From Cocleimonas flava (GTDB taxonomy: Bacteria; Pseudomonadota; Gammaproteobacteria; Thiotrichales; Thiotrichaceae), in assembly GCF_004339015.1 (NCBI RefSeq), contig NZ_SMFQ01000004.1, forward strand, positions 434,001 to 498,000: a stretch of DNA of 64,000 nt, given 5' to 3'. Under the pieces are notes generated by a model. The model was not told the DNA's origin and did not search any database. It saw nothing but the letters and a program-made list of their open reading frames with translations. The position numbers and the translations under genes are program-made. Numbering within the stretch: the stretch's first letter is position 1; each line of letters opens with the position of its first letter. This document shows positions 3,561 through 45,600 of this stretch, piece after piece.

Positions 3561-4085
3561 ATGATCAAAAAAGTGTTATTTATTATTCTTCACGTGCTGT
3601 TATTTGGCGGACAGCTTGCCTATGCAGACTTAGAAGTGACCTTTGTAGAAAGTGCACCTAAAGATAGATTTGAAATTAAGAATACTAGCGAGTGCGTTTT
3701 AAAGGATTTTGTACTGAATGTAGATTTATCCAACAGCGCTGGACGATTGATTTTTGATACGAGTGCAACGGGTGCCGGGGTTGAAGTTTTCCAGCCTTTT
3801 GAAGTCGTCAAAGGTAAACTAACACTGATTTCTTCCACTACAGTGAAGGATGGCGACAAGACGCTGTCGCTAAGTATCGAGAGCATTGGGCCTAACAAGT
3901 CGGCCAGCTTCAGTATCGATGTTGATGATACTTTAGCGCAAAGTGAGCTAGGAAATATTCGTGTATCTGGATCAGAAATATCAAACGGCTTAGTTGCCGT
4001 TAATTTAAAAAATAAAAAACCATATAAAGCATCGTTTAACAAAAATGGCAAAGCACTGATCAAGCTTCCGCCTTGCTCTGCTTGA
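3561..4085 (+). CDS. Exported aggregation-factor-core-like protein
   Basis: A 174-residue protein with a signal peptide (about 1-22, cleavage after AYA). The mature part begins DLEVTFVESAPKDRFEIKNTSECVLKDF and contains GAGVEVFQPFEVVKG and SASFSIDVDDT, a pattern I recognise from short bacterial proteins annotated as aggregation factor core protein. It is predicted to be an all-beta, periplasmic or secreted protein with two cysteines (43 and 172) that may form a disulfide. No enzymatic motif is visible. It stands alone, 475 bases away from any other plus-strand gene on the 3' side of the repeat at 3440. Confidence 0.6.
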   Translation: MIKKVLFIILHVLLFGGQLAYADLEVTFVESAPKDRFEIKNTSECVLKDFVLNVDLSNSAGRLIFDTSATGAGVEVFQPFEVVKGKLTLISSTTVKDGDKTLSLSIESIGPNKSASFSIDVDDTLAQSELGNIRVSGSEISNGLVAVNLKNKKPYKASFNKNGKALIKLPPCSA

Positions 4086-4209
4086 GTTTTCTCTTATCGG
4101 TCTTTATCTTACGCTAGCTTTTTCTAAGGCAAACCTGACGGACATTGTTGGCTTTTGCTGAGCCTATCCCCAACTTTCACCCTTAATCTTTTTTTAACGA
4201 CGATTCGAC

Positions 4210-4254
4210 TATAATTTGAGCGATCACTCAATTATTTCTTGAATGATCATTCAA
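4210..4254 (+). promoter_or_regulatory. Promoter with two TetR-type operators
   Basis: A TATAAT hexamer at 4210-4215 is directly followed by two related 16-bp dyads: TTGAGCGATCACTCAA (4216-4231, two mismatches) and TTGAATGATCATTCAA (4239-4254, perfect), with centres 23 bp apart. This is the form of TetR-family operators blocking transcription start. No intact gene follows for about 660 bases, and no tetR gene is near. Confidence 0.6.
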
Positions 4255-4259
4255 TTATA

Positions 4260-4560
4260 GTTATAGTGATTTTTCCTTAGCTTAATTCCCAATTAAGGTT
4301 TTTTGTAAATAACAAAATCTGGAGATAAAACGGCAACTTTAAGCATTCAGTATTTAGGAAAGCACCCCGCTGCAAGCAAATATTTTCTAGAAAAAACATT
4401 TTTAGCAGATGGGAAATTTTTTAACTTCACGTCTTAAAGTCCAACTCTCCCGAATTACCAGAGGAGCATCAAAAGCTACATGAGTTATTTGAAAGACCAT
4501 TAACATTGAATATGTGTGTAACTACTATGTACCCGCTCATACTAGTGTTTCACATACGTT
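4260..4560 (+). pseudogene. Possible decayed coding remnant behind the orphan promoter
   Basis: Downstream of the double operator there are short open stretches in shifting frames (for example about 4339-4437 and about 4437-4560) that read like coding sequence but have no credible start and end in stops. I cannot assign a family. The rest of the 4086-4915 gap holds no convincing gene. Confidence 0.2.
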
Positions 4561-4915
4561 AAAGTAGTTCCTGATTAACAGATTCAAAAAAAGTTACAGA
4601 CCCGCTTAACTCAACTCTGGCGATGGCTCCTAGTCCTGAAATTTGATAGTACGGCATACTTATAAACATACACGGAGGTAAGGTTTTTATGAATTCGGAC
4701 TTTCCAGGCAAGTAACAGAAAGTCTGCAATATCTGGCACCTAGTTGTTTGGGTCAATAGCCACTAGAGAGCCTAATTGAGTTCGAAGTGATAATAACAAC
4801 AACAATCTAAGAACGTATTAAGACGTCGATGGATCTTTGTCTATCGAAAGAATATGAAGTGCAGACTACAAGCTGCCGCTTGCTGTCTTATCGACATTAA
4901 TTTGAGGAGAATTCA

Positions 4916-6307
4916 ATGTTACGTTTAAAAAAAATATTACTTATAGCCACAATAATTGCATTTGCACCATTTAAAAGCTGGGCTGCGGATGTATTAGAAA
5001 TCAACGTTCAATCAAGATACTCACCCTTGCAATTCATAGATTCAGCTTTTGGAGGGGCGCACCCAATTGGTGGGCCTGGTCACGCCTTCGTTTTAAAAGC
5101 TAATGATACATTGAGCCCTCTTGGAATCAATTTTGTTATGCATAACTCTGGCAAAGTGAATAAATATGATGAAAAGAATATTCTTCCTAAACTAGTTGAT
5201 AGAAAAAAACATGGAAATCTCTATAAAGCAGTTGCTCTAGGGGACAAGCAAGGTGGTATCAACGCAGCACTTTCAATTCCTGCTGAGTCAGGCCTCGCCT
5301 TTGGTGAGATGCTATCTGGAGGAGTTCCCTTTGGTATGTCTACAGATGAATATGCTGCTTATATATATTATGGTGGTGGTCTTGATTTGCAGCAAAAAAT
5401 TTACGACGATGCTTTCGATAGTAAACTTGTAACCATTCCTGTTGCACTAACAAGCGCACAAGGATCTGGCTTTTTTCCTAAGCAATTACCAGACCCTGAT
5501 AACAATCCAAGTTTAAGTAATGAAGATGCTATGGCAGAATTTTGTAACATGCCATTAATTGTTCGCTGGCCTGACTCTGCTGCTCAAGTCATAAAAGAAG
5601 CCTGCTCTAGAGTTGGGGTTACAACTGCTTATATTGGTAAAGAGACCCGCTGCGTAGACCCTAAAGCAACCTGTGATCCTATTAAAAACCCTTCTAACCC
5701 AGTGAAAAACATACCTACTGTTTTGACGTTTGGTGGCTTTGCTCCAGGTGTGATTCCTCATCAAATGTTTGGCAGTGGCAATATTGATGCATTTGAATTG
5801 AACATGCCAACAGAAGACATTCAGTTTTTGAAACTTGCGAGTAAGCAGCTGGATAAGAAGAATGCTGACGCAGATTTAAGTAGCATCGTTGCACCGTACA
5901 AATACGCAGGATCATGGCACCAGCCCATCCTATTAGTAGAACTAGTATTTAATAGAGACTTCTGGGACGGCTTCACCAAAATACAACAAGATCTCATTAA
6001 AACGGTTGCTCAAGCAAGTATAGTTGATACTCAAGCGAGACTTCTTAGCATGCAAGGTGAAGCTATTGAACAATTAGAGGCAGCAGGTGTTGTTCATCTT
6101 AAATGGCCACAAGGCATATTGGAGAAATTACGTGATGCAATGCCTGATGGCTTAAATAAGGTTGCAAATAAGGCCGTTCAAAAAGGTGATAATTCTTCAA
6201 GACTTTGGTTAGATGCAACATGGGCGTTTCAAAAGAAGAATCAAAAGTTTTTTGATTATGGTGATATAAATCAGGGTCAATCTAATTTTCAAACGTCAAA
6301 AAAATAA
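4916..6307 (+). CDS. TRAP transporter solute-binding protein (DctP family)
   Basis: A 463-residue exported protein (signal peptide about 1-24, cleavage after SWA). The region SGLAFGEMLSGGVPFGMSTDEYAAYIYYGGGLDLQQKIYDD and the later YKYAGSWHQPILLVELVFNRDFWDGFTKIQQDLI are typical of DctP-like periplasmic binding proteins of TRAP transporters, which deliver carboxylates or similar ligands to a DctQ/DctM permease. It is longer than the usual 330-380 residues, with an insert carrying paired cysteines (CVDPKATC). No dctQ or dctM lies in the window, so it is an orphan. A strong GAGGAG ribosome site precedes the ATG. The MarR gene converges on it. Confidence 0.8.
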   Translation: MLRLKKILLIATIIAFAPFKSWAADVLEINVQSRYSPLQFIDSAFGGAHPIGGPGHAFVLKANDTLSPLGINFVMHNSGKVNKYDEKNILPKLVDRKKHGNLYKAVALGDKQGGINAALSIPAESGLAFGEMLSGGVPFGMSTDEYAAYIYYGGGLDLQQKIYDDAFDSKLVTIPVALTSAQGSGFFPKQLPDPDNNPSLSNEDAMAEFCNMPLIVRWPDSAAQVIKEACSRVGVTTAYIGKETRCVDPKATCDPIKNPSNPVKNIPTVLTFGGFAPGVIPHQMFGSGNIDAFELNMPTEDIQFLKLASKQLDKKNADADLSSIVAPYKYAGSWHQPILLVELVFNRDFWDGFTKIQQDLIKTVAQASIVDTQARLLSMQGEAIEQLEAAGVVHLKWPQGILEKLRDAMPDGLNKVANKAVQKGDNSSRLWLDATWAFQKKNQKFFDYGDINQGQSNFQTSKK

Positions 6308-36427: not shown

Positions 36428-37672
36428 TTAAAAGAACTTTTCTAGCTCTACCTGAATATAATCATCTTTGCTAAAGGTGTAAAAAGGATCATTCTCATCC
36501 ACATCGGTAAAAACCTGTCCTTCTATATTCAGCTTCATACCATTACCAATTCTTCGACTTGCTTCTAATCTCAAACTTTTTGAAGAGTTATCTAAATCGA
36601 CAAAAGCACCTGCTAACAACTCACTACTGTCTTCATCATTTAACGCCAGACGCGCACCAAAAAACAGATCGTTCTGAAAGGGAGCGTTGGCTACTTCTCC
36701 ACGCGAATCTCTATGGTATTCAGCCAGCAAACCCAGTTCTGCACCAGATTCTGAGATAGCGGGTAAGGTATATTCAAAACCACCCACCGCTGCAGAGTAA
36801 TCATCCCCCTTTCGCTTTCGATGTATCGCTTCTAACTTCCAGATGATAGCTTCCCCTGTGTATTGAAGATCTAAACCAAGCTGGGTAATTAACGGATAAT
36901 GTGGCACCAGAACTGCTTCCCCATTTTTCTGACCTATACGTAAATCCGGATCGCGCGAAGTACCGTCGAAGAGATGCACCCCAAAATCAAATTCGTCTAA
37001 CGACTCTGACCAACGCACCGCATAATCTATGTGTTTATCTTCAGAAGCTGACTCATACGTTGCAGCATCTGTATCGACCACCAACGGCGATCGAAACCGT
37101 CCATTAACACCCGAAAACGTCCTCTCGCGAAAATAAGGCAATACAAAGAAATCCACTGAACCCGTATCTGTGAGACGACTCACACGAAACATGGGCTGAC
37201 CGAGTTTATCCTCGCCATCGATCCCCTCAACACCATCGGTCTGATTAATAATATCTACTAGATGCTGCGACTCTGTTACACCCCAGAATTTTTTGCTGAT
37301 ACCAAGCTGATATTCCCAGTCTCCTTTACTCACCAGGTAATCTAGCTGACGGATATCACCATGGGTTCTTTCGTCGTCATTTTCATCCCAACGATAGAAA
37401 GGTGTGAAGGTAAACTGCTGGTCTTCATTATCCCACTTGTGTTTAAACTCAGGCAGAAAACTCAATGACACCCCCCCACTTTCGGCCTGTTTTTCATAAG
37501 CAGGATCGGTAGTAAACAAACGTCCTTCAACCGCAACATTGCCTGAGAGCTCAGCAGCAGTCACAGTAGAAGTGAACGCCAAAGCTGCAATAGACACAGC
37601 CAGTCTCTTTACTGATAGCGACAAATTACCCCCGAAACATTTGTTGAATAGATGTTGATTTTTTAAAGCCAT
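36428..37672 (-). CDS. Predicted outer-membrane beta-barrel protein of the MMPL locus
   Basis: A 414-residue exported protein with a signal peptide ending near TVTAA (about 39). The mature part alternates polar and hydrophobic residues in many short strands, ends in aromatic F (VELEKFF) as outer-membrane barrels do, and has few hydrophobic helices. I do not recognise a named family. It starts inside the end of the methyltransferase gene (10-base overlap) and lies last in the minus-strand group with the LolA-like and MMPL genes, suggesting an outer-membrane channel or acceptor for the exported lipid. A C6-TACTT repeat is embedded at 37469-37482, coding S-G-G-V-S. Confidence 0.65.
   Translation of the reverse strand: MALKNQHLFNKCFGGNLSLSVKRLAVSIAALAFTSTVTAAELSGNVAVEGRLFTTDPAYEKQAESGGVSLSFLPEFKHKWDNEDQQFTFTPFYRWDENDDERTHGDIRQLDYLVSKGDWEYQLGISKKFWGVTESQHLVDIINQTDGVEGIDGEDKLGQPMFRVSRLTDTGSVDFFVLPYFRERTFSGVNGRFRSPLVVDTDAATYESASEDKHIDYAVRWSESLDEFDFGVHLFDGTSRDPDLRIGQKNGEAVLVPHYPLITQLGLDLQYTGEAIIWKLEAIHRKRKGDDYSAAVGGFEYTLPAISESGAELGLLAEYHRDSRGEVANAPFQNDLFFGARLALNDEDSSELLAGAFVDLDNSSKSLRLEASRRIGNGMKLNIEGQVFTDVDENDPFYTFSKDDYIQVELEKFF
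37469..37482 (+). repeat. C6-TACTT dispersed repeat inside the barrel gene
   Basis: CACCCCCCCACTTT followed by CGGCCTGTTTTT, encoding E-S-G-G-V-S on the minus strand. The frame is intact, and the downstream T-tract is kept inside coding sequence. Confidence 0.8.
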
Positions 37673-38118
37673 CGTCTAACCCTGTTTTTATAGTCTAAAT
37701 ATTCGTTCGTAAATTTCTGCTCTAGCATGCGTTCTTCCGGCTTTATCTGCATCTCTGTAATGACCCAATAAAACGCAGGTAACATAATAAAAGGAGACAA
37801 ACTACCTAGCCATATACCGAAACCAAACAAGATAATTAACATACCAAGATACATAGGATTACGGCTATATTGATACAATCCCTTGGTGACAATACCAGAA
37901 GTATTTTCGGGTTTCATCGGATTGGGCGTGGTCTTCTTTTTCAAAAACAGTAATAACGACCAGACATCAAAACTCACTGCAATAACAATAATCACCAAAC
38001 CAATTTTGTTCCAGGGTGTTTGAATAATCTCGGCAACTGGCATGTATTTACTCAGTAACCACATGAGAATGGCAATACTGATCGCATAAACGGGTGGTGG
38101 GATTTTAAGTTGTAACAT
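37663..38118 (-). CDS. PEMT/ICMT-like membrane methyltransferase
   Basis: A 151-residue integral membrane protein with about four hydrophobic segments. The signature KGLYQYSRNPMYLGMLIILFGFGIWLGS followed by KPEERMLEQKFTNEYLDYKNRVRRWL matches the phospholipid/isoprenylcysteine methyltransferase superfamily, which binds SAM at the membrane face. Substrate unknown. It overlaps the barrel gene by 10 bases and lies 50 bases after the TfoX-N gene. The setting beside lipid-transport genes would fit lipid methylation, but this is inference. Confidence 0.82.
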   Translation of the reverse strand: MLQLKIPPPVYAISIAILMWLLSKYMPVAEIIQTPWNKIGLVIIVIAVSFDVWSLLLFLKKKTTPNPMKPENTSGIVTKGLYQYSRNPMYLGMLIILFGFGIWLGSLSPFIMLPAFYWVITEMQIKPEERMLEQKFTNEYLDYKNRVRRWL

Positions 38119-38168
38119 GTAAAAGCTTCCGTGCTTTTGGTTAAATTTGTCTTTTCTATTTCAGTATT

Positions 38169-38543
38169 TTACTGCGAACGGCTCGCTGCTTGTAACGCTT
38201 CTTTAGCCCATTCGTGCATTACATCCTGATCTTCAAAACAGCTTTCTGGGGCGGTATAAAATTTACGCACTTTAACCGTACCCGTTTTCTTTTCGTATTC
38301 AAAAGGCGTCATGCCCAGCGTTTCATATTTTGGACGACTTTGATCATCAACCACAAAATACAGAACATCATCGATAATCATTGCAAACTGGATTTCTTCC
38401 AACTGCTCCTGATACTCACCCTCTGGGCTCACCCGATAACGAGATCTTAACGATTTACCACCGAAGAATGCTTTAACACTGACATCAGGCACATCGCAGA
38501 GTAAATCCTGAATATATGCGAGATACTCTGCTGATACTGACAT
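38169..38543 (-). CDS. TfoX N-terminal-domain protein
   Basis: A 124-residue protein with the TfoX/Sxy N-terminal fold: VSVKAFFGGKSLR, then FAMIIDDVLYFVVDDQSRPKYETLGMTPFEYEKKTGTVKVRKFYTAPESCFEDQDVMHEWAKEAL. It lacks the C-terminal helical domain of full competence regulators such as E. coli Sxy, so a competence role cannot be assumed. It lies between the LolA-like and methyltransferase genes. Confidence 0.85.
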   Translation of the reverse strand: MSVSAEYLAYIQDLLCDVPDVSVKAFFGGKSLRSRYRVSPEGEYQEQLEEIQFAMIIDDVLYFVVDDQSRPKYETLGMTPFEYEKKTGTVKVRKFYTAPESCFEDQDVMHEWAKEALQAASRSQ

Positions 38544-38575
38544 AGACTTTTCTCAACGCCTTATTTCGTATACGT

Positions 38576-39355
38576 TTAACGCGCTAGTGACTTTTTATTG
38601 AAATCACGTTTTGATAAACCGGTTTTAAATTTGTAGTTAGTCCACTCTAAAGTGGTACTTTTACCCGTTTGATGGTTCTGCATTGCCATCAACGCTGGTC
38701 TCCAATGCTTACCTGCGTATTGTTTAAATCCAGTAGCATTTAAGGTCTTTAACAAAGAATTTTTACGATCATAGTACATCACTTTTACTGGTCGATAAGC
38801 CTGGGTATCAATCCACGTCACCTGCTTTGTGTAGCCGGAATATTTATACGCAGGAATGCGTTCAATCACATGACACTTCATGCCATTTCCGCACGGCTCT
38901 TCTTTGAGGTAGTTGTATGTAAATTTCTCGACTTCCTGTGATCCCAAATCTTCAAAGGCAAACTCACTCCCCATAAAAGGACCAGATTTGTTTTTCGAAT
39001 TAATTCGCTTAACACGCTTAAGTGCAGGAAGGTAAAGCCATTGATCATCAGGTTTTAAACCATGAGAAAAGGTCAGCATCGCCGTGCCTTTGACATCAGC
39101 CGGCTCATCGAATAAGGATAAAGACTTATCGCCATCACCCTTACCTTCTAAGGTTTTGATACGAATAATTCGACGGCTGGTTTTACCCGCACGGTTTTTC
39201 AAGGTCATTACCATATTCGCAGTGAAATCAGAAAAGCCCTGGTCACTGAGGTCTGCCGCTTTAGCAATTCTTAGCCCTTTTTCTGCAGGTGTTTCAGCAA
39301 ATACACCCAATGATGAAACAGTTAACAATGTCGCTAGTAACAGTTTGATTTTCAT
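38576..39355 (-). CDS. LolA-like outer-membrane lipoprotein-sorting family protein
   Basis: A 259-residue periplasmic protein (signal peptide 1-20, cleavage after VFA). The sequence GFSDFTANMVMTLKNRAGKTSRRIIRIKTLEGKGDGDKSLSLFDEPADVKGTAMLTFSHG and MGSEFAFEDLGSQEVEKFTYNYL is characteristic of the long LolA-fold family often encoded beside MMPL exporters. These proteins form an open half-barrel that can carry a lipid or acyl chain. It is not the housekeeping LolA. It lies 187 bases downstream of the MMPL gene. Confidence 0.85.
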   Translation of the reverse strand: MKIKLLLATLLTVSSLGVFAETPAEKGLRIAKAADLSDQGFSDFTANMVMTLKNRAGKTSRRIIRIKTLEGKGDGDKSLSLFDEPADVKGTAMLTFSHGLKPDDQWLYLPALKRVKRINSKNKSGPFMGSEFAFEDLGSQEVEKFTYNYLKEEPCGNGMKCHVIERIPAYKYSGYTKQVTWIDTQAYRPVKVMYYDRKNSLLKTLNATGFKQYAGKHWRPALMAMQNHQTGKSTTLEWTNYKFKTGLSKRDFNKKSLAR

Positions 39356-39542
39356 TCTCTCTCCAATTATTCATACTTTTTGTTAAGTCTTATCTATCCA
39401 ATTAAGACTCGATAATTACTTTGCAGTTCAATCACTGCGATAGTCGGTTCTTCTACTATCGAACCTTTTCTTTATATTCGTGTTCGTTTTGCAACGAATA
39501 CCTACGACCTTTTCATTTTATGATCTTTTTATACATTTCACA

Positions 39543-41915
39543 TTAAATCTGATTTTCACTAATGACAGCCGCAACAGGTTCTGTCACTTTTTTATCTTTG
39601 TTCAACCAGGCGTCCAGCTTTATAAGAAGTGGCGGTAACAACAAGAAATCAACAATCAACGCGATTGCGATAACTATCGCGGTTAGCAGCCCCATGCCTG
39701 AATTCAATTTAAAGGAGGATGTTGCTAACACCAAAAAGCCTGCAACCAATGCCACAGAGGTCACCCAAAGAGCCACGCCTACCGTAGAAAAGGCATAACG
39801 CACCGCATCTTCAGCACCCAATCCTTTTTCTCGTCTGGCGCGTAAATATTTAGATAAAAAGTGAATGGTATCGTCTACCACAATCCCCAACGTCATTGCT
39901 GTAACCACCGACAATGCCAAGCCAATCTCACCACTAATAAGCGCCCAGATACCAAATGCCATGCCGGCAGGGACAAGATTAGGGATTAAACTCAATAAAC
40001 CATATCGCCACGACTTCAGGGCAAAAACCAGAATCAACGAAATCAGCACTAAAGCGATGGTTGTTCCACTAATCATACTGATAATATTTTTCATACCAAT
40101 ATGGGCAAACATGATTGTAGGGCTAGCGCCAACTGCTTTCAGATGTGGCATATTCTGTTCCATCCACTGATCAACCCGGGTTTCCATCTCTAGCACTTGT
40201 TTTGTCGATATGGTCTTCAACGTCACGGTGATACGCGTACTCTTCTTATCGATATCGATCTGATTATTCAAATCCAGACCGAAGGGCAAAGACATTTCGT
40301 ATAGCAACAGATATTGCGCAGCCATTTCTCGGGATTCAGGTAGCTTGTAATAGCTCTTATCATCGCCGTGCATATTTTTATTTAAACGGGTGAAAGTATC
40401 CGTAACAGTATTAACATGAACCACTTCTGGTTGAGTATTTAGCCAATCCGTAAATTTCTTGATATTCACCAACACATCGGGATCGGAGATATCACCGGTG
40501 TTTTCTGTATTAATAGAATATTCGATATTATAAATACCGGTTAAATTTTGACTGATAAAATCAGTATCCCGACGAAACTCAATGCGTTCATCAAAGTACT
40601 CAACAAACACATCGTTTAATTCATTGATTGGAATAAGCGAAATCAAGACAACTGCGATTAAGCTCATACCTACTAACAGAGATTTTTGCTTCGCAATCAC
40701 CCATTCCGCAAACGAAGACATGATTTTTAAGGTGTGCGTATCTTTTTTCTTTTCCCTAATCGGTAAAAGAGTCGCTATTGCTGGCAGAAAGAATATAGAG
40801 AAGATAAATGCTGCAATTACTCCCATTGCGGCAACATTCCCCAGGTCGCGAAAAGGTGGCGCATCACTTGTATTAAGAGATAAGAAACCTATAGCAGTGG
40901 TGACGGAAGTCAAAAATACCGGCATAAAGTTGACCCTAAGACTTTCAACCATTGCCGTTTTCTTGTCAGACCCCTGACGAATTTCAGATAACCAGGTGGA
41001 AAGGATATGCACGCAATCCGCAACCGCCAGCGTCATAATAATGACGGGTGCAGACATCACAGGAGAAGACAGTTCGATTCCCAGCCAACCGGCTAAACCA
41101 AACGCTGTAATGACAGAAAACAAAATCACCAGCAAGGTCGTTAAGGTTCCGGAAACACTTCTTAACAATAAAAAGACGGTAATTAATATCAGCAATAACG
41201 CCATCGGCAAAAGATGTGACATATCGTAAATAGTCGCCTCACCAAAAGCATTATTCATCATTACGATGCCTGATAAATGAACGCTTAGTTCGGGGTATGT
41301 TTTTTCGATATAGCTTTTTAGTTCGCGGACAGAAGTAACCACTTCTGAAACTTGCTTAGTAGGGTCCGCAGCGATTGTTCCACCTTTACCATCGGGAATT
41401 TGTTTGGGAAATTCCATGGTGATATTGATAGCACTCACATGTGCTTTTTCTGATATCAAACGATGCAGTAATAGTGGCTCATTCAGCGCAATCGCTTTAA
41501 TACGAGTGAGCTCATCTGCATCCAGCTCACTCGCTTCCTCAAACAAATTAGCCACCGACATATCATCTTCTACAGATTCACTGTGTTGATAGTTTGATAG
41601 TGAATCGACTCGAATTGAATAAGGTGTTTGCCACGCTTTTTCGGTGACATCTTCTATTGCAGTGAGTGTTTCTGTTTTAAACACAACACCGTCTTTAGGC
41701 GCCAATACAAGGATGACATTGTCATTTTTGGTATAGGTATTTTGTAATTCTTCGAAGGCTTGTAAACGAGGATCATCTGCCGAGAAGAATATCCGGTAAT
41801 CGTTATTAAAAAATAGATTCTTAGCGCCAACACCCGCTAATAACATAAATAAAACAGACAGTATTAACAAAGCCCAACGAAATTGAATAACACTCTCAGC
41901 ATACTTCTTTACCAT
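39543..41915 (-). CDS. MMPL/RND-family exporter
   Basis: A 790-residue protein with two RND modules. Each has one transmembrane helix, a periplasmic domain (about 40-225 and 425-610) and a cluster of five helices (starting LLPMALLLILITVFLLLR and MISGTTIALVLISLILVF). Motifs LAVADCVHILSTWL and LGIVVDDTIHFLSKYLRARR hold the acidic residues used for proton coupling in MMPL proteins. This hydrophobe/lipid exporter family usually works with LolA-like periplasmic proteins. It follows the tetR gene by 10 bases, so the two are co-transcribed. Confidence 0.9.
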   Translation of the reverse strand: MVKKYAESVIQFRWALLILSVLFMLLAGVGAKNLFFNNDYRIFFSADDPRLQAFEELQNTYTKNDNVILVLAPKDGVVFKTETLTAIEDVTEKAWQTPYSIRVDSLSNYQHSESVEDDMSVANLFEEASELDADELTRIKAIALNEPLLLHRLISEKAHVSAINITMEFPKQIPDGKGGTIAADPTKQVSEVVTSVRELKSYIEKTYPELSVHLSGIVMMNNAFGEATIYDMSHLLPMALLLILITVFLLLRSVSGTLTTLLVILFSVITAFGLAGWLGIELSSPVMSAPVIIMTLAVADCVHILSTWLSEIRQGSDKKTAMVESLRVNFMPVFLTSVTTAIGFLSLNTSDAPPFRDLGNVAAMGVIAAFIFSIFFLPAIATLLPIREKKKDTHTLKIMSSFAEWVIAKQKSLLVGMSLIAVVLISLIPINELNDVFVEYFDERIEFRRDTDFISQNLTGIYNIEYSINTENTGDISDPDVLVNIKKFTDWLNTQPEVVHVNTVTDTFTRLNKNMHGDDKSYYKLPESREMAAQYLLLYEMSLPFGLDLNNQIDIDKKSTRITVTLKTISTKQVLEMETRVDQWMEQNMPHLKAVGASPTIMFAHIGMKNIISMISGTTIALVLISLILVFALKSWRYGLLSLIPNLVPAGMAFGIWALISGEIGLALSVVTAMTLGIVVDDTIHFLSKYLRARREKGLGAEDAVRYAFSTVGVALWVTSVALVAGFLVLATSSFKLNSGMGLLTAIVIAIALIVDFLLLPPLLIKLDAWLNKDKKVTEPVAAVISENQI

Positions 41916-41925
41916 GCTCTTTTTC

Positions 41926-42648
41926 CTAAGTTTTTTTAGTTGGCCGTAACGATTCTAATTGATCTATAAGACCCTGACCGCAACTCAGCAAGGCATCTTT
42001 ACTTTGCAAACTTTTAGCGTATCCCAGACACCCTTCTAGGGATGCAACAAACAACAATGAGGCTTGTTTGGAATCGACACTATTCTTGAAATTACCTGCC
42101 AGCTTTCCTCTTTCGCAAGCCGCTTCGATGGCTTCTTGCCACTCCGAATATACTTTTGAAATACGCTCTCTAAACCCTTCATCTATCGGTGACATTTCTT
42201 GAGCCAGATTATTCATCGGACAACCTAAGCGGATATCCGCATCAGTCATAATCTTAGAGGTATTGATCAAAATATCCTGAATCGTTCTGATCGGATCATC
42301 GGTTTGATTCAATGGTTCGATCCAGTTTTCTTTAATCGACTGAAAAATAAATTCATCAACCACCGCATAGCCAAGATCCATCTTATTTTTGAAATGATGG
42401 TATAGAGCACCCTTGGTGGTGCCGGTATTTTTAAGAATATTATTTAGAGAAGCCGCCTGAAAACCACAGTGATAGATTTCATTAAAGGCTGCAAGCAGGA
42501 TTTTTTCACGAGTAGCTGAGCTTTTACTTAAAGGCTCAGAACCTTCAGCGTCAGCGGAACACGGGCATAAACTTGACCATAATTTCCACCAGCTTTGGGG
42601 AGTTTCAATAGTTTTTGAAAGTGATTTCATTAATTCAGTACCATACAT
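41926..42648 (-). CDS. TetR/AcrR-family regulator of the MMPL locus
   Basis: A 240-residue regulator. The helix-turn-helix is REKILLAAFNEIYHCGFQAASLNNILKNTGTTKGALYHHFKNKMDLGYAV, preceded by an unusual 45-residue N-terminal extension with two nearby cysteines (LCPCSAD). A second ATG at 42630 would shorten it by six residues. The dyad CATACCGGTTGGTATG directly before the start is a classical TetR-type operator, so autoregulation together with the MMPL gene is likely. The effector is unknown. Confidence 0.9.
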   Translation of the reverse strand: MYGTELMKSLSKTIETPQSWWKLWSSLCPCSADAEGSEPLSKSSATREKILLAAFNEIYHCGFQAASLNNILKNTGTTKGALYHHFKNKMDLGYAVVDEFIFQSIKENWIEPLNQTDDPIRTIQDILINTSKIMTDADIRLGCPMNNLAQEMSPIDEGFRERISKVYSEWQEAIEAACERGKLAGNFKNSVDSKQASLLFVASLEGCLGYAKSLQSKDALLSCGQGLIDQLESLRPTKKT

Positions 42649-42751: not shown

Positions 42752-43282
42752 TTATTCCCAGGCCCCTATTTTTATCAAATTACCATCAAAATAATGTGGC
42801 GGAATGGTTAATTGATAACTCAACTGATTCGGAAAAACGGGCAGTCCATTTTCATCAAAAACATTCTTGGAACAGGTATCATTAAACTCACCTTTGGCAT
42901 AATACAAAGGACAGTTACCCGAATCGCCATGATTTATGAAAACAAAATATTCTGGTTTGATTGATCGAGTCTCGGTTGATAAGGACTTATGCAAGGTATC
43001 TTTTGATGAGTCACTGCCCTCTTCTGATTGAGCTTTTTTAGTAAATTGCCGATAAAGCACTGCGGCTTCTTTTACTCCCCAACGCACTTTTCTTATTTCA
43101 CCTTTTCGCATATCGCTGATATCGATAGCAACCGTAGCAATTTGCTTTTCTTTTTTAACTTTCTGATTATTGTCTTGTTGATTGGTAAATAAAGAATTAA
43201 CAAATACCGCGATTAAAACGAATAAACCAACGAAAAATAATGATTTCAAAATAACGCGAAACAATAAACGACGGTTTTCCAT
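42752..43282 (-). CDS. Membrane-anchored Rieske-like protein lacking the cluster ligands
   Basis: A 176-residue protein from the ATG at 43282 (a GTG at 43291 is also possible) with one N-terminal transmembrane helix (about 10-30). The segment VAIDISDMRKGEIRKVRWGVKEAAVLYRQF resembles the strand region of Rieske iron-sulfur subunits, and PVFPNQLSYQLTIPPHYFDGNLIKIG resembles their C-terminal strands. Where the ligand motifs C-T-H-L-G-C and C-P-C-H-G should stand, it has INHGDSGNCPL and NDTCSKNVFD, so at least two ligands are lost and no 2Fe-2S cluster is expected. Function unknown. It is divergent from metG. Confidence 0.6.
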   Translation of the reverse strand: MENRRLLFRVILKSLFFVGLFVLIAVFVNSLFTNQQDNNQKVKKEKQIATVAIDISDMRKGEIRKVRWGVKEAAVLYRQFTKKAQSEEGSDSSKDTLHKSLSTETRSIKPEYFVFINHGDSGNCPLYYAKGEFNDTCSKNVFDENGLPVFPNQLSYQLTIPPHYFDGNLIKIGAWE

Positions 43283-43464
43283 AGAATGCACAAATCAAAA
43301 ATAAAACATTATAGTGAAAATACGAGATCAAAGAACGATAAACTACTGAAAAAGAAATACCAAATGATCACTAATGATACGCAATCCTTACTAGCGATTA
43401 ATACGCCAGTCTGTTAATTTACACGGTCTTTACTTCTTACAATTAGTCCTGAAAAATTAGCCTT

Positions 43465-45600
43465 ATGAATCCCGTTGAAAAACCACGCAAAATACTGATT
43501 ACCTCTGCTCTTCCTTATGCCAATGGACCGATCCATTTAGGCCATATGGTGGAGTATATCCAGACGGATATCTGGGCACGTTTCCAACGACTTCGAGGCA
43601 ATAGCTGCATCTTTGCTTGGGCTGATGACGCACACGGCACACCGATCATGTTGCGCGCTCAACAAGAAGGTATCGAGCCGCAGGAACTCATCGACAAAAT
43701 GAAGCAGGAACATGAGCGTGATTTCAATGATTTCCTGATCTCATACGACAACTTCCACACTACGCATTCTGAAGAAAATAAGTACTTCTCAGAAACCATT
43801 TATTTAGCCGCAAAAGCTAAAGGTAATATCGCGACCAAAACCATCAAACAGGCATACGACCCTGAAGCGAATATGTTTTTACCGGATCGCTTCATCAAAG
43901 GCGAATGCCCGAATTGTGGCACACCCGATCAATACGGTGATAACTGCGAGAGTTGTGGCGCAACTTATTCAACCACAGAAGTGGTTAACCCCTATTCTGT
44001 CGTTACTGGCGCAACCCCTATCGAAAAAGACAGTGAACATTATTTCTTTAAAATCAGCGACTATGCTGATTTTCTTAAAGAATGGGTAAATAGCGGCAGC
44101 GTTCAAAAAGAAATCGCTAACAAAATGAATGAATGGCTGGAAGACGGCCTGAATGATTGGGACATTTCTCGCGATGCACCTTACTGGGGCTTTAAAATTC
44201 CGGGTACTGAAGATAAATACTTTTATGTGTGGCTAGATGCGCCTATTGGCTATATCGCATCATTCAAAAACTACTGTGATCGTGAAGATGTCGATATCGA
44301 TTTCGATGAGTACTGGAGTGCAGAAAGAAACCAGAACAATGAAACCGAGCTGTATCATTTCATTGGTAAAGATATCGCTTACTTTCATACTCTATTCTGG
44401 CCCGCAGTTTTAAAATCAGCAGATATGCGTTTACCTACAGCCGTTTTCTGTCACGGTTTCTTAAACGTGAATGGTCAGAAAATGTCTAAATCACGCGGCA
44501 CCTTTATACAGGCACGCGTATTTCTTGATCACTTACCTGCTGAACCTTTGCGTTACTACTATGCGGCAAAACTAAGCAATACCGTTGACGATATCGACCT
44601 GAATTTAAAAGACTTCCAGCTACGTATTAATAGTGATCTGGTAGGAAAAGTCGTGAATATCGCCTCTCGTTGCGCAGGATTCATCAGCAAAAAGTTTGAT
44701 GGAAAACTGTCTGCTACGCTTGCAGATGAAGCCTTGTATCAGCAATTTATTGATGCCAGCGACTCAATCGCACAAGCCTACGAAGACCGCCGTTACAGTA
44801 AGGCAATGCGTGAAATCATGGCTTTAGCTGATCTTGCTAATCAATACGTTGATGAAAAACAGCCATGGGTCTTAGCTAAAGATGAAACACGCCAGCAGGA
44901 AGTACAAGATATCTGTTCCTTAGGTATCAATATGTTCCGCGCGATCATTACCTACTTAAAACCTGTGTTACCTGAGTTGGCTGCGAAATCAGAAGATTTC
45001 CTGAATGCTGGCGAATTAAGCTGGAATGATATAGCCACCCCCCTACTTTCAAGCGAAATTAAGAAATTCAGACCGCTAATGACGCGAATCGAAGAAGATA
45101 AAGTAGATGCCATGCTGGAAGCGAATAAACTACTTTTGGCTGAAGCGGCAACGTTACAGGCGAAAACCAATACAAACAACACTGAGAAAGATACGGATAC
45201 AAAAATGAGTGATGCTAGCGAATCTGCTACTAAGGCTACTAAAGAACAAGACCCAATCAGCCCAACCATCGAATTTGATGATTTCGCAAAGATTGATCTA
45301 CGTGTGGTTAAGATTCTAAAAGCAGAACATGTGGAAGGTGCTGATAAATTACTTCAGCTGACACTCGATCTGGGCGAAGGTGAAAGCAAAGGTCAGCGCA
45401 ACGTATTCGCAGGTATTAAATCTGCTTACGAGCCTGCTGAACTTGAAGGAAAGTTGACAGTCATGGTGGCTAATTTAGCACCACGAAAAATGCGTTTTGG
45501 TATGTCAGAAGGCATGGTATTAGCAGCCGGCCCTGGTGGCAAAGATATCTTCGTGCTTAATCCGGATGAAGGTGCTTTACCTGGAATGCGCGTTAAATAA
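43465..45600 (+). CDS. metG: Methionyl-tRNA synthetase
   Basis: A 711-residue class I synthetase. The HIGH-type motif is HLGH (24-27) and the second motif KMSKS lies at about 339-343. The zinc knuckle is C148-x2-C151 and C161-x2-C164. The C-terminal part is a tRNA-binding dimerisation domain ([32 protein letters not shown]), joined by a linker rich in T, K and E (about 565-600). It charges tRNA-Met. A C6-TACTT repeat is embedded at 45036-45049, coding A-T-P-L-L-S, where other MetG proteins also have PLL. Confidence 0.97.
45036..45049 (+). repeat. C6-TACTT dispersed repeat inside metG
   Basis: CACCCCCCTACTTT in coding sequence, read A-T-P-L-L-S with the codons ACC CCC CTA CTT. No T-tract follows here. 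The frame is intact. Confidence 0.75.

Follow-up and report, generated by a model that had tools for sequence, protein, structure and literature searches.

In some bacteria NirD, the small subunit of nitrite reductase, adopts the Rieske fold but carries no cluster; it is a soluble, cytoplasmic protein without a membrane anchor. The Zn-bound immature PetA of Thermochromatium tepidum (TtPetA; 7yr9), which retains its Cys and His ligands and also exists in a 2Fe-2S form, has Cys124, His126, Cys152 and His155 at the metal site and a disulphide bridge between Cys129 and Cys154, according to the parts of PMC10492824 that deal with this protein. Removal of the disulphide bridge from a bc1 Rieske protein lowers the stability of the cluster, as stated in the relevant passage of PMC3758308. 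Among the supernumerary subunits of bc1 complexes, subunit IV (FbcQ) of Rhodobacter sphaeroides is described, in the sections of PMC10041115 that cover it, as encoded outside the fbc operon and as having a helix that crosses those of the Rieske subunit and c1, the four-subunit complex being threefold more active; in the same sections, yeast QCR9 seems to act mainly through its helix.

Here we describe a gene in the window, the whole 64,000-nucleotide stretch of Cocleimonas flava DNA under analysis, whose product shares with PetA of bc1 (TIGR01416) the fold, the N-terminal anchor, the RSIKPE and PPxY segments and the places of the disulphide cysteines. It differs from PetA in being one of a set of paralogs without cluster ligands, mostly without a Tat motif and with a more hydrophobic anchor, and in lying away from cytochrome b. 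An anchor helix sets the window protein apart from NirD, to which the likeness is by description only. No account of a ligandless bacterial Rieske paralog was found in a literature search conducted largely without subscription papers, and no dedicated Pfam or NCBIfam model for a cluster-free Rieske paralog was found.

Results

The gene (42752..43282, minus strand, stop codon included) starts with an ATG at 43282, its stop ends at 42752, and it encodes 176 amino acids; an alternative in-frame GTG at 43291 would make the protein three residues longer. As stated in the original prediction, it is encoded divergently from metG (43465-45600, plus strand), with 182 bp separating the two starts. metG and a TetR-like gene flank it, and cytochrome b is not adjacent. 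The ordinary PetA of the same genome (4.49 Mb assembly in 10 contigs) scored 223.6 bits and lies beside cytochrome b on a contig other than that of the window gene. A scan for promoters and terminators gave four promoter-like sites, compared with 3.5 in shuffles, and no terminator. The genes on the far side (36428-42648), by appearance TetR-like, MMPL-like transporter, lipoprotein-sorting-like and methyltransferase-like, recur in four other loci (L033, L034, L035 and L046).

Assignment of the gene as a cluster-free Rieske paralog rests on the open reading frame, TIGR01416, BLASTP and a structure model. TIGR01416 (NCBIfam) matches residues 30-173 (E = 1.2e-7, 31.9 bits) without reaching its curated cut-off of 97.4 bits, and BLASTP against the PetA of the same genome gave 38/137 identical residues (E = 7e-7 for that single comparison). 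A Pfam scan of the window protein gave nothing above cut-offs (three weak matches, best E 0.089), and a single-sequence phmmer search of PDB was not significant, the best match (E 0.41) being a Rieske chain. Profile A4 retrieved 35 PDB sequences at E<=0.01, by name all Rieske or bc1 entries. The class-wide profile A5, in which some rows from class genomes start at a residue picked by eye and not at a start codon, retrieved 52 PDB sequences at E<=0.001, each bearing the name of a Rieske, bc1 or b6f iron-sulphur entry, and reached the PetA of P. aeruginosa at 5.5e-33. An NCBIfam scan found TIGR01416 in 21 of the 23 rows of A5. The window protein is thus a true relative of the bc1 Rieske proteins.

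Several other matches were set aside. Besides TIGR01416, the NCBIfam scan of the A5 rows gave two b6f iron-sulphur models (one row each) and NqrC (one row), and Na(+)-NQR subunit C also matched residues 8-82 of the window protein weakly (E 0.00096; 18.8 bits, where the cut-off is 352). FtsH_ext (Pfam) appeared in one A5 row at 0.0064, which is not convincing, and the 35 anchor rows of profile A6 gave PgaD in three (best 0.019), SecE in one (0.0014) and YidC in one (0.019). These matches are read as shared hydrophobic helices.

Structural modelling from 16 sequences (the window and related loci) gave a window protein model with a mean pLDDT of 80.8 and a pTM of 0.61, in which a helix at residues 4-32 is followed by strands from residue 51 on, with blocks of low confidence around residues 31-50 and 81-110 (pLDDT 51-67). 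The model therefore combines a single N-terminal anchor (residues 1-36; 43175..43282, minus strand) with the Rieske fold, including the C-terminal Rieske segment L158-TIPPHYFDGNLIKIG-A174 (42761..42811, minus strand), where strands are modelled at 163-166 and 169-172. The best Foldseek matches were bc1 Rieske subunits (8smr_C, E 3.5e-7); with 8smr_C the model aligned at Z 13.6 over 156 residues with an rmsd of 5.8. VIA-align placed immature TtPetA closest (Z 14.1, rmsd 2.8, 115 residues), with bovine Rieske (1rie) at Z 13.8 (rmsd 3.1, 113 residues). A predicted structure unrelated to the Rieske fold would have refuted the original prediction; the one obtained does not, and agrees with the profiles, TIGR01416 and the BLASTP comparison in bearing out the initial assignment of a Rieske-like protein with a membrane anchor.

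The two ligand boxes read GDSGNC (box 1, G119 to C124; 42911..42928, minus strand) and DTCSKN (box 2, D135 to N140; 42863..42880, minus strand), compared with CTHLGC and CPCHGS in the PetA of the same genome. On alignment with that PetA, the four Cys/His/Cys/His ligand places are occupied by G119, S121, D135 and S138; all four ligands are lost, as originally predicted, and the loss is common to the relatives. C124 and C137 align with the Rieske disulphide pair, to which the original prediction did not refer, and lie at the places of Cys129 and Cys154 of TtPetA as given in the available part of PMC10492824. Both cysteines are kept in 52/52 ligandless relatives spanning 16 family codes of the class; these rows, non-random since chosen by profile score, are the 53 classed by pattern less L142 (CTHLQC/CPCH, canonical), and one genome (G022) supplies two. 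Both Cys-ligand places are devoid of Cys in every row. His is found at the first His place in one row (L094, aligned across an insertion) and at the second in two (L091 and L109), and 48 of the 52 have Asp or Glu at the Cys-ligand place of box 2. Several distant members still have canonical residues around the places of the lost ligands, as in L048, with DRCRGSRYDFAGR compared to CPCHGSRFDLAGR in the PetA of the window's genome, and the loops around C124 and C137 are conserved among close relatives. C124 and C137 presumably form a disulphide bridge. Both sequence and model suggest that the window protein should not be a Rieske-type electron carrier, because no residues that bind a [2Fe-2S] cluster remain, and it departs from a functional Rieske iron-sulphur protein in its ligands, its TIGR01416 score and the lack of an adjacent cytochrome b. 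Retention of the fold without a cluster, the other part of the original proposal, is supported by the model and by ligand loss among the relatives.

Two distant ligandless relatives, L052 (G164:C1:316454-316975; 106.6 bits) and L048 (G379:C29:26369-26884; 105.8 bits), exceed the TIGR01416 cut-off and could therefore be annotated as iron-sulphur subunits. Other unusual Rieske-like sequences were met as well. L109:4095-4622 (G022, genus g7) is a second, very diverged paralog with both disulphide cysteines and only the box-2 His of the ligands, L168:1006-1629 (G093, a single-contig genome of f35) is another Rieske-like protein that lacks the ligands, its box 2 containing SPC, and L108 (G017:C25:115240-115509) is a broken additional PetA copy of the canonical type with internal stops.

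Ligandless copies were found in 15 family codes besides that of the window (f1), namely f20, f35, f49, f57, f86, f106, f124, f125, f126, f127, f131, f145, f151, f154 and f155. The 15 named loci with relatives belong to Cocleimonas, Leucothrix, Thiotrichaceae MAGs and a single MAG whose name goes no further than Proteobacteria. Cocleimonas being a gammaproteobacterium, the class is taken to be Gammaproteobacteria. A quick tree was built from 94 rows; it left out L018 (cut by a contig end), kept L109 and L168 apart and had 36 of its 91 branches open. Its 43 canonical rows made up one side of a branch with an SH-aLRT of 88, which is compatible with a single loss of the ligands, short of proving it. 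Presence in the window's family was counted with the anchor profile A6 and not with A1, which gives mostly ordinary PetA among the matches listed; A6 was found in 52 of the 63 family genomes and in 43 of the 46 good ones. Over the class it matched 27 of 369 genomes at E<=0.01, some of these matches being weak and probably due to chance, and it missed ligandless relatives with diverged anchors, giving none in G203, G281, G185, G411 and G212. In the phylum draw it matched one of 299 genomes, the window's own.

The export signal appears to differ between the two kinds of protein. By a crude pattern applied to stop-to-stop frames, with L018, L109 and L168 left out, RRx-phi-phi occurs near the anchor start in 9/49 ligandless rows versus 40/43 canonical rows, and the most hydrophobic 20 residues average 2.31 in ligandless and 1.71 in canonical rows. 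The Tat motif thus appears to be mostly gone in ligandless relatives. The window protein itself carries RRLLF, so that, taken alone, it has not lost the motif. Loss of the motif would fit loss of the cluster, because a protein free of cofactor need not be exported folded. The head of the window protein is presumably periplasmic.

No petABC operon containing the ligandless gene was present in any locus read, and no operon clue was found in the neighbourhoods. Of the 20 class loci, 16 have RsmJ within the stretch examined (3 to 16.5 kb), mostly adjacent and convergent in some, divergent in others. Both rsmJ and DUF423 are on the strand opposite to the ligandless gene; yajQ, which carries no functional reading here, is on its strand in 8/20 class loci, with rsmJ intervening in two. 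These eight are L078, L079, L082, L084, L089, L090, L093 and L094, and yajQ is very close to the gene in L079 and L093. Within f1, L037 and L041 show the order DUF423, gene, RsmJ, SlyX, ArgG; DUF423 adjoins the gene in 6/15 named loci, and metG does so in five of the six named loci of the window's genus, L036 being the exception.

A search of the family with A5 returned short frames in genera g2 and g5 that match only profile positions 2-34 and align with the anchor of the window protein. Fifteen of the 22 anchor matches in these genera were read, 14 of them translated and the last, from G024, ending at the same point. The 14 predicted anchor-only proteins are about 35 amino acids long (35 to 45; e.g. 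MNTHEKRQIYRIILKVMAWLGLLFLLLVLLRSCFA), and an earlier in-frame ATG is present at four of their loci. The anchor profile found such proteins in 15/16 genomes of g2 and 7/9 of g5, the two g5 genomes without a match being at most 81% complete. G040 of g2 has no anchor protein by profile or beside rsmJ, retains RsmJ, SlyX and ArgG, and carries two canonical PetA. Of 39 longer Rieske-like matches in g2 and g5, 25 were examined and all 25 were canonical. Around the 14 anchor-only loci, both DUF423 and RsmJ were found in nine, at least one of the two in 13 and neither in L103. In L096 the small gene (4165-4269) sits between the matches to DUF423 (3799-4137) and RsmJ (4267-4923), the chromosomal slot of the full-length gene in L037.

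A conserved cysteine precedes the end of the anchor-only proteins by no more than about ten residues. This cysteine near the C-terminal end (LRSC/LRGC) is present in 14/14 anchor-only proteins (L096-L107, L112 and L113) versus 0/21 head-bearing A6 rows, and might serve as a dimer or lipid-attachment cysteine. Elsewhere, L111 (G039:C120:1785-1889, genus g8) continues beyond the anchor part with unrelated residues; no in-frame ATG was found in it, and it is either a separate truncation or a pseudogene.

Comparison of the window gene with L033 gave a dN/dS of 0.12 over the full protein. By residues, the ratio was 0.03 (1-33; a rough value, as dS is about 2.2 and synonymous sites are near saturation), 0.67 (34-50), 0 (51-79), 0.36 (80-108) and 0.07 (109-176). 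For the anchor-only genes, where synonymous sites are likewise near saturation, pooled pS and pN were 0.71 and 0.18 in g2 (seven sequences, ratio 0.25) and 0.80 and 0.24 in g5 (seven sequences, ratio 0.29). Differences at their codon positions 1, 2 and 3 were 0.35, 0.15 and 0.58, and mean amino-acid identity was 0.67 in frame; the two remaining frames gave 0.34 and 0.30, and in them 13/14 and 2/14 sequences meet stops. These substitution patterns indicate that the anchor-only predicted proteins are under purifying selection; from the per-segment dN/dS and the pN/pS values it follows that constraint acts on the head where it is kept and on the anchor in both forms, and that the linkers are loose.

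A search for PetA in the 20 class genomes that carry a ligandless copy outside f1 found a canonical one (>200 bits) in 18. The co-occurrence is weak evidence, because profile A1 matches at least 288 of the 369 class genomes anyway, ordinary PetA prevailing among the matches listed. The two exceptions, G189 (95% complete) and G245 (86% complete), have a ligandless copy with no canonical PetA and no PF00032 cytochrome b, an absence that may be a gap since both assemblies are fragmented. G189 counts against a strict link to bc1.

Discussion

Of the two roles suggested in the original prediction, structural or assembly factor, the data lean towards the structural one, since the membrane anchor persists in lineages that have lost the head. 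By analogy with known subunits, we tentatively propose, at somewhat less than an even chance, that the protein is an accessory subunit with one helix and no cluster, cytochrome bc1 being the likeliest complex and the link to bc1 the presumed part. The paralog keeps its anchor, the Rieske fold and both tip cysteines and has no [2Fe-2S]-binding residues, and its transmembrane helix would pack against a respiratory complex in the membrane, most probably cytochrome bc1. Such packing may stabilise or tune the complex, as subunit IV of R. sphaeroides or QCR9/UQCR10 do, and the periplasmic head would be of secondary importance, having been dropped in some lineages. The protein would presumably be expressed, bind bc1 and have an effect on it. 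As a working model, the likeness to subunit IV and QCR9/UQCR10, as these are treated in the pertinent part of PMC10041115, lies in a gene outside the operon, one transmembrane helix as the main element and a small soluble part; it is one of architecture, and no sequence relation is claimed.

Some of the same observations could be accommodated otherwise. A transient assembly factor or placeholder, sitting on cytochrome b/c1 at the Rieske position until cluster-loaded PetA arrives, would agree with the fold and N-terminal anchor kept in the model and with the normal PetA found alongside in most genomes, and yet seems unlikely, as g2 and g5 keep the anchor but have lost the entire head, which is hard to fit to a head-shaped placeholder. 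Counted against the bc1 subunit proposed above are G040, which has two canonical PetA and no anchor protein, and the conserved neighbours rsmJ, DUF423 and yajQ, which have no known respiratory role; if yajQ, on the same strand, forms an operon with the gene, the partner would lie elsewhere than bc1. Together with the absence of an operon tie to bc1 and with G189, in which neither PetA nor cytochrome b was detected, these neighbours could speak for a helix accessory to a membrane complex other than bc1, the Rieske origin being only history. This is doubtful, however: in the window's genus it is metG that mostly adjoins the gene instead, and the products of DUF423, yajQ and rsmJ are not known as membrane-complex subunits.

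The invariant cysteines and the conserved loops around them in close relatives might suggest a periplasmic thiol/disulphide sensor with C124-C137 as its working site. We consider this very unlikely, since the anchor-only proteins are without both cysteines and have one other near the C-terminus, and retention of the pair may merely hold two loops together. Even less probable is a decaying, functionless duplicate. All ligands are lost, the head is gone in two genera and 11 of the 63 family genomes have no anchor match, as decay would have it, but the selection data largely contradict it: the dN/dS of the full protein is low, the two cysteines are invariant across all 16 family codes, and conservation of the anchor-only proteins is frame-specific.

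Returning to the accessory-subunit reading, a stepwise history is conceivable, although we hold it with appreciable doubt, in which a PetA duplicate in Gammaproteobacteria lost its ligands, then its Tat dependence and then, in two genera of one family, its head, leaving a helix of about 35 amino acids that serves a respiratory complex. Beyond the original prediction, what is new is the retained disulphide pair, the class-wide spread, an export signal that appears to have changed and the relatives reduced to an anchor. Ligandless relatives that score above the TIGR01416 cut-off are a warning for annotation. That the family keeps the disulphide cysteines and not the ligands means that fold stability can be told apart from cluster binding, and the anchor-only relatives show what remains once a catalytic subunit loses its chemistry, which bears on why bc1 complexes recruited supernumerary subunits, a question raised in the part of PMC10041115 considered here. 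If true, the proposed history would be a traced bacterial route from a catalytic to a supernumerary subunit.
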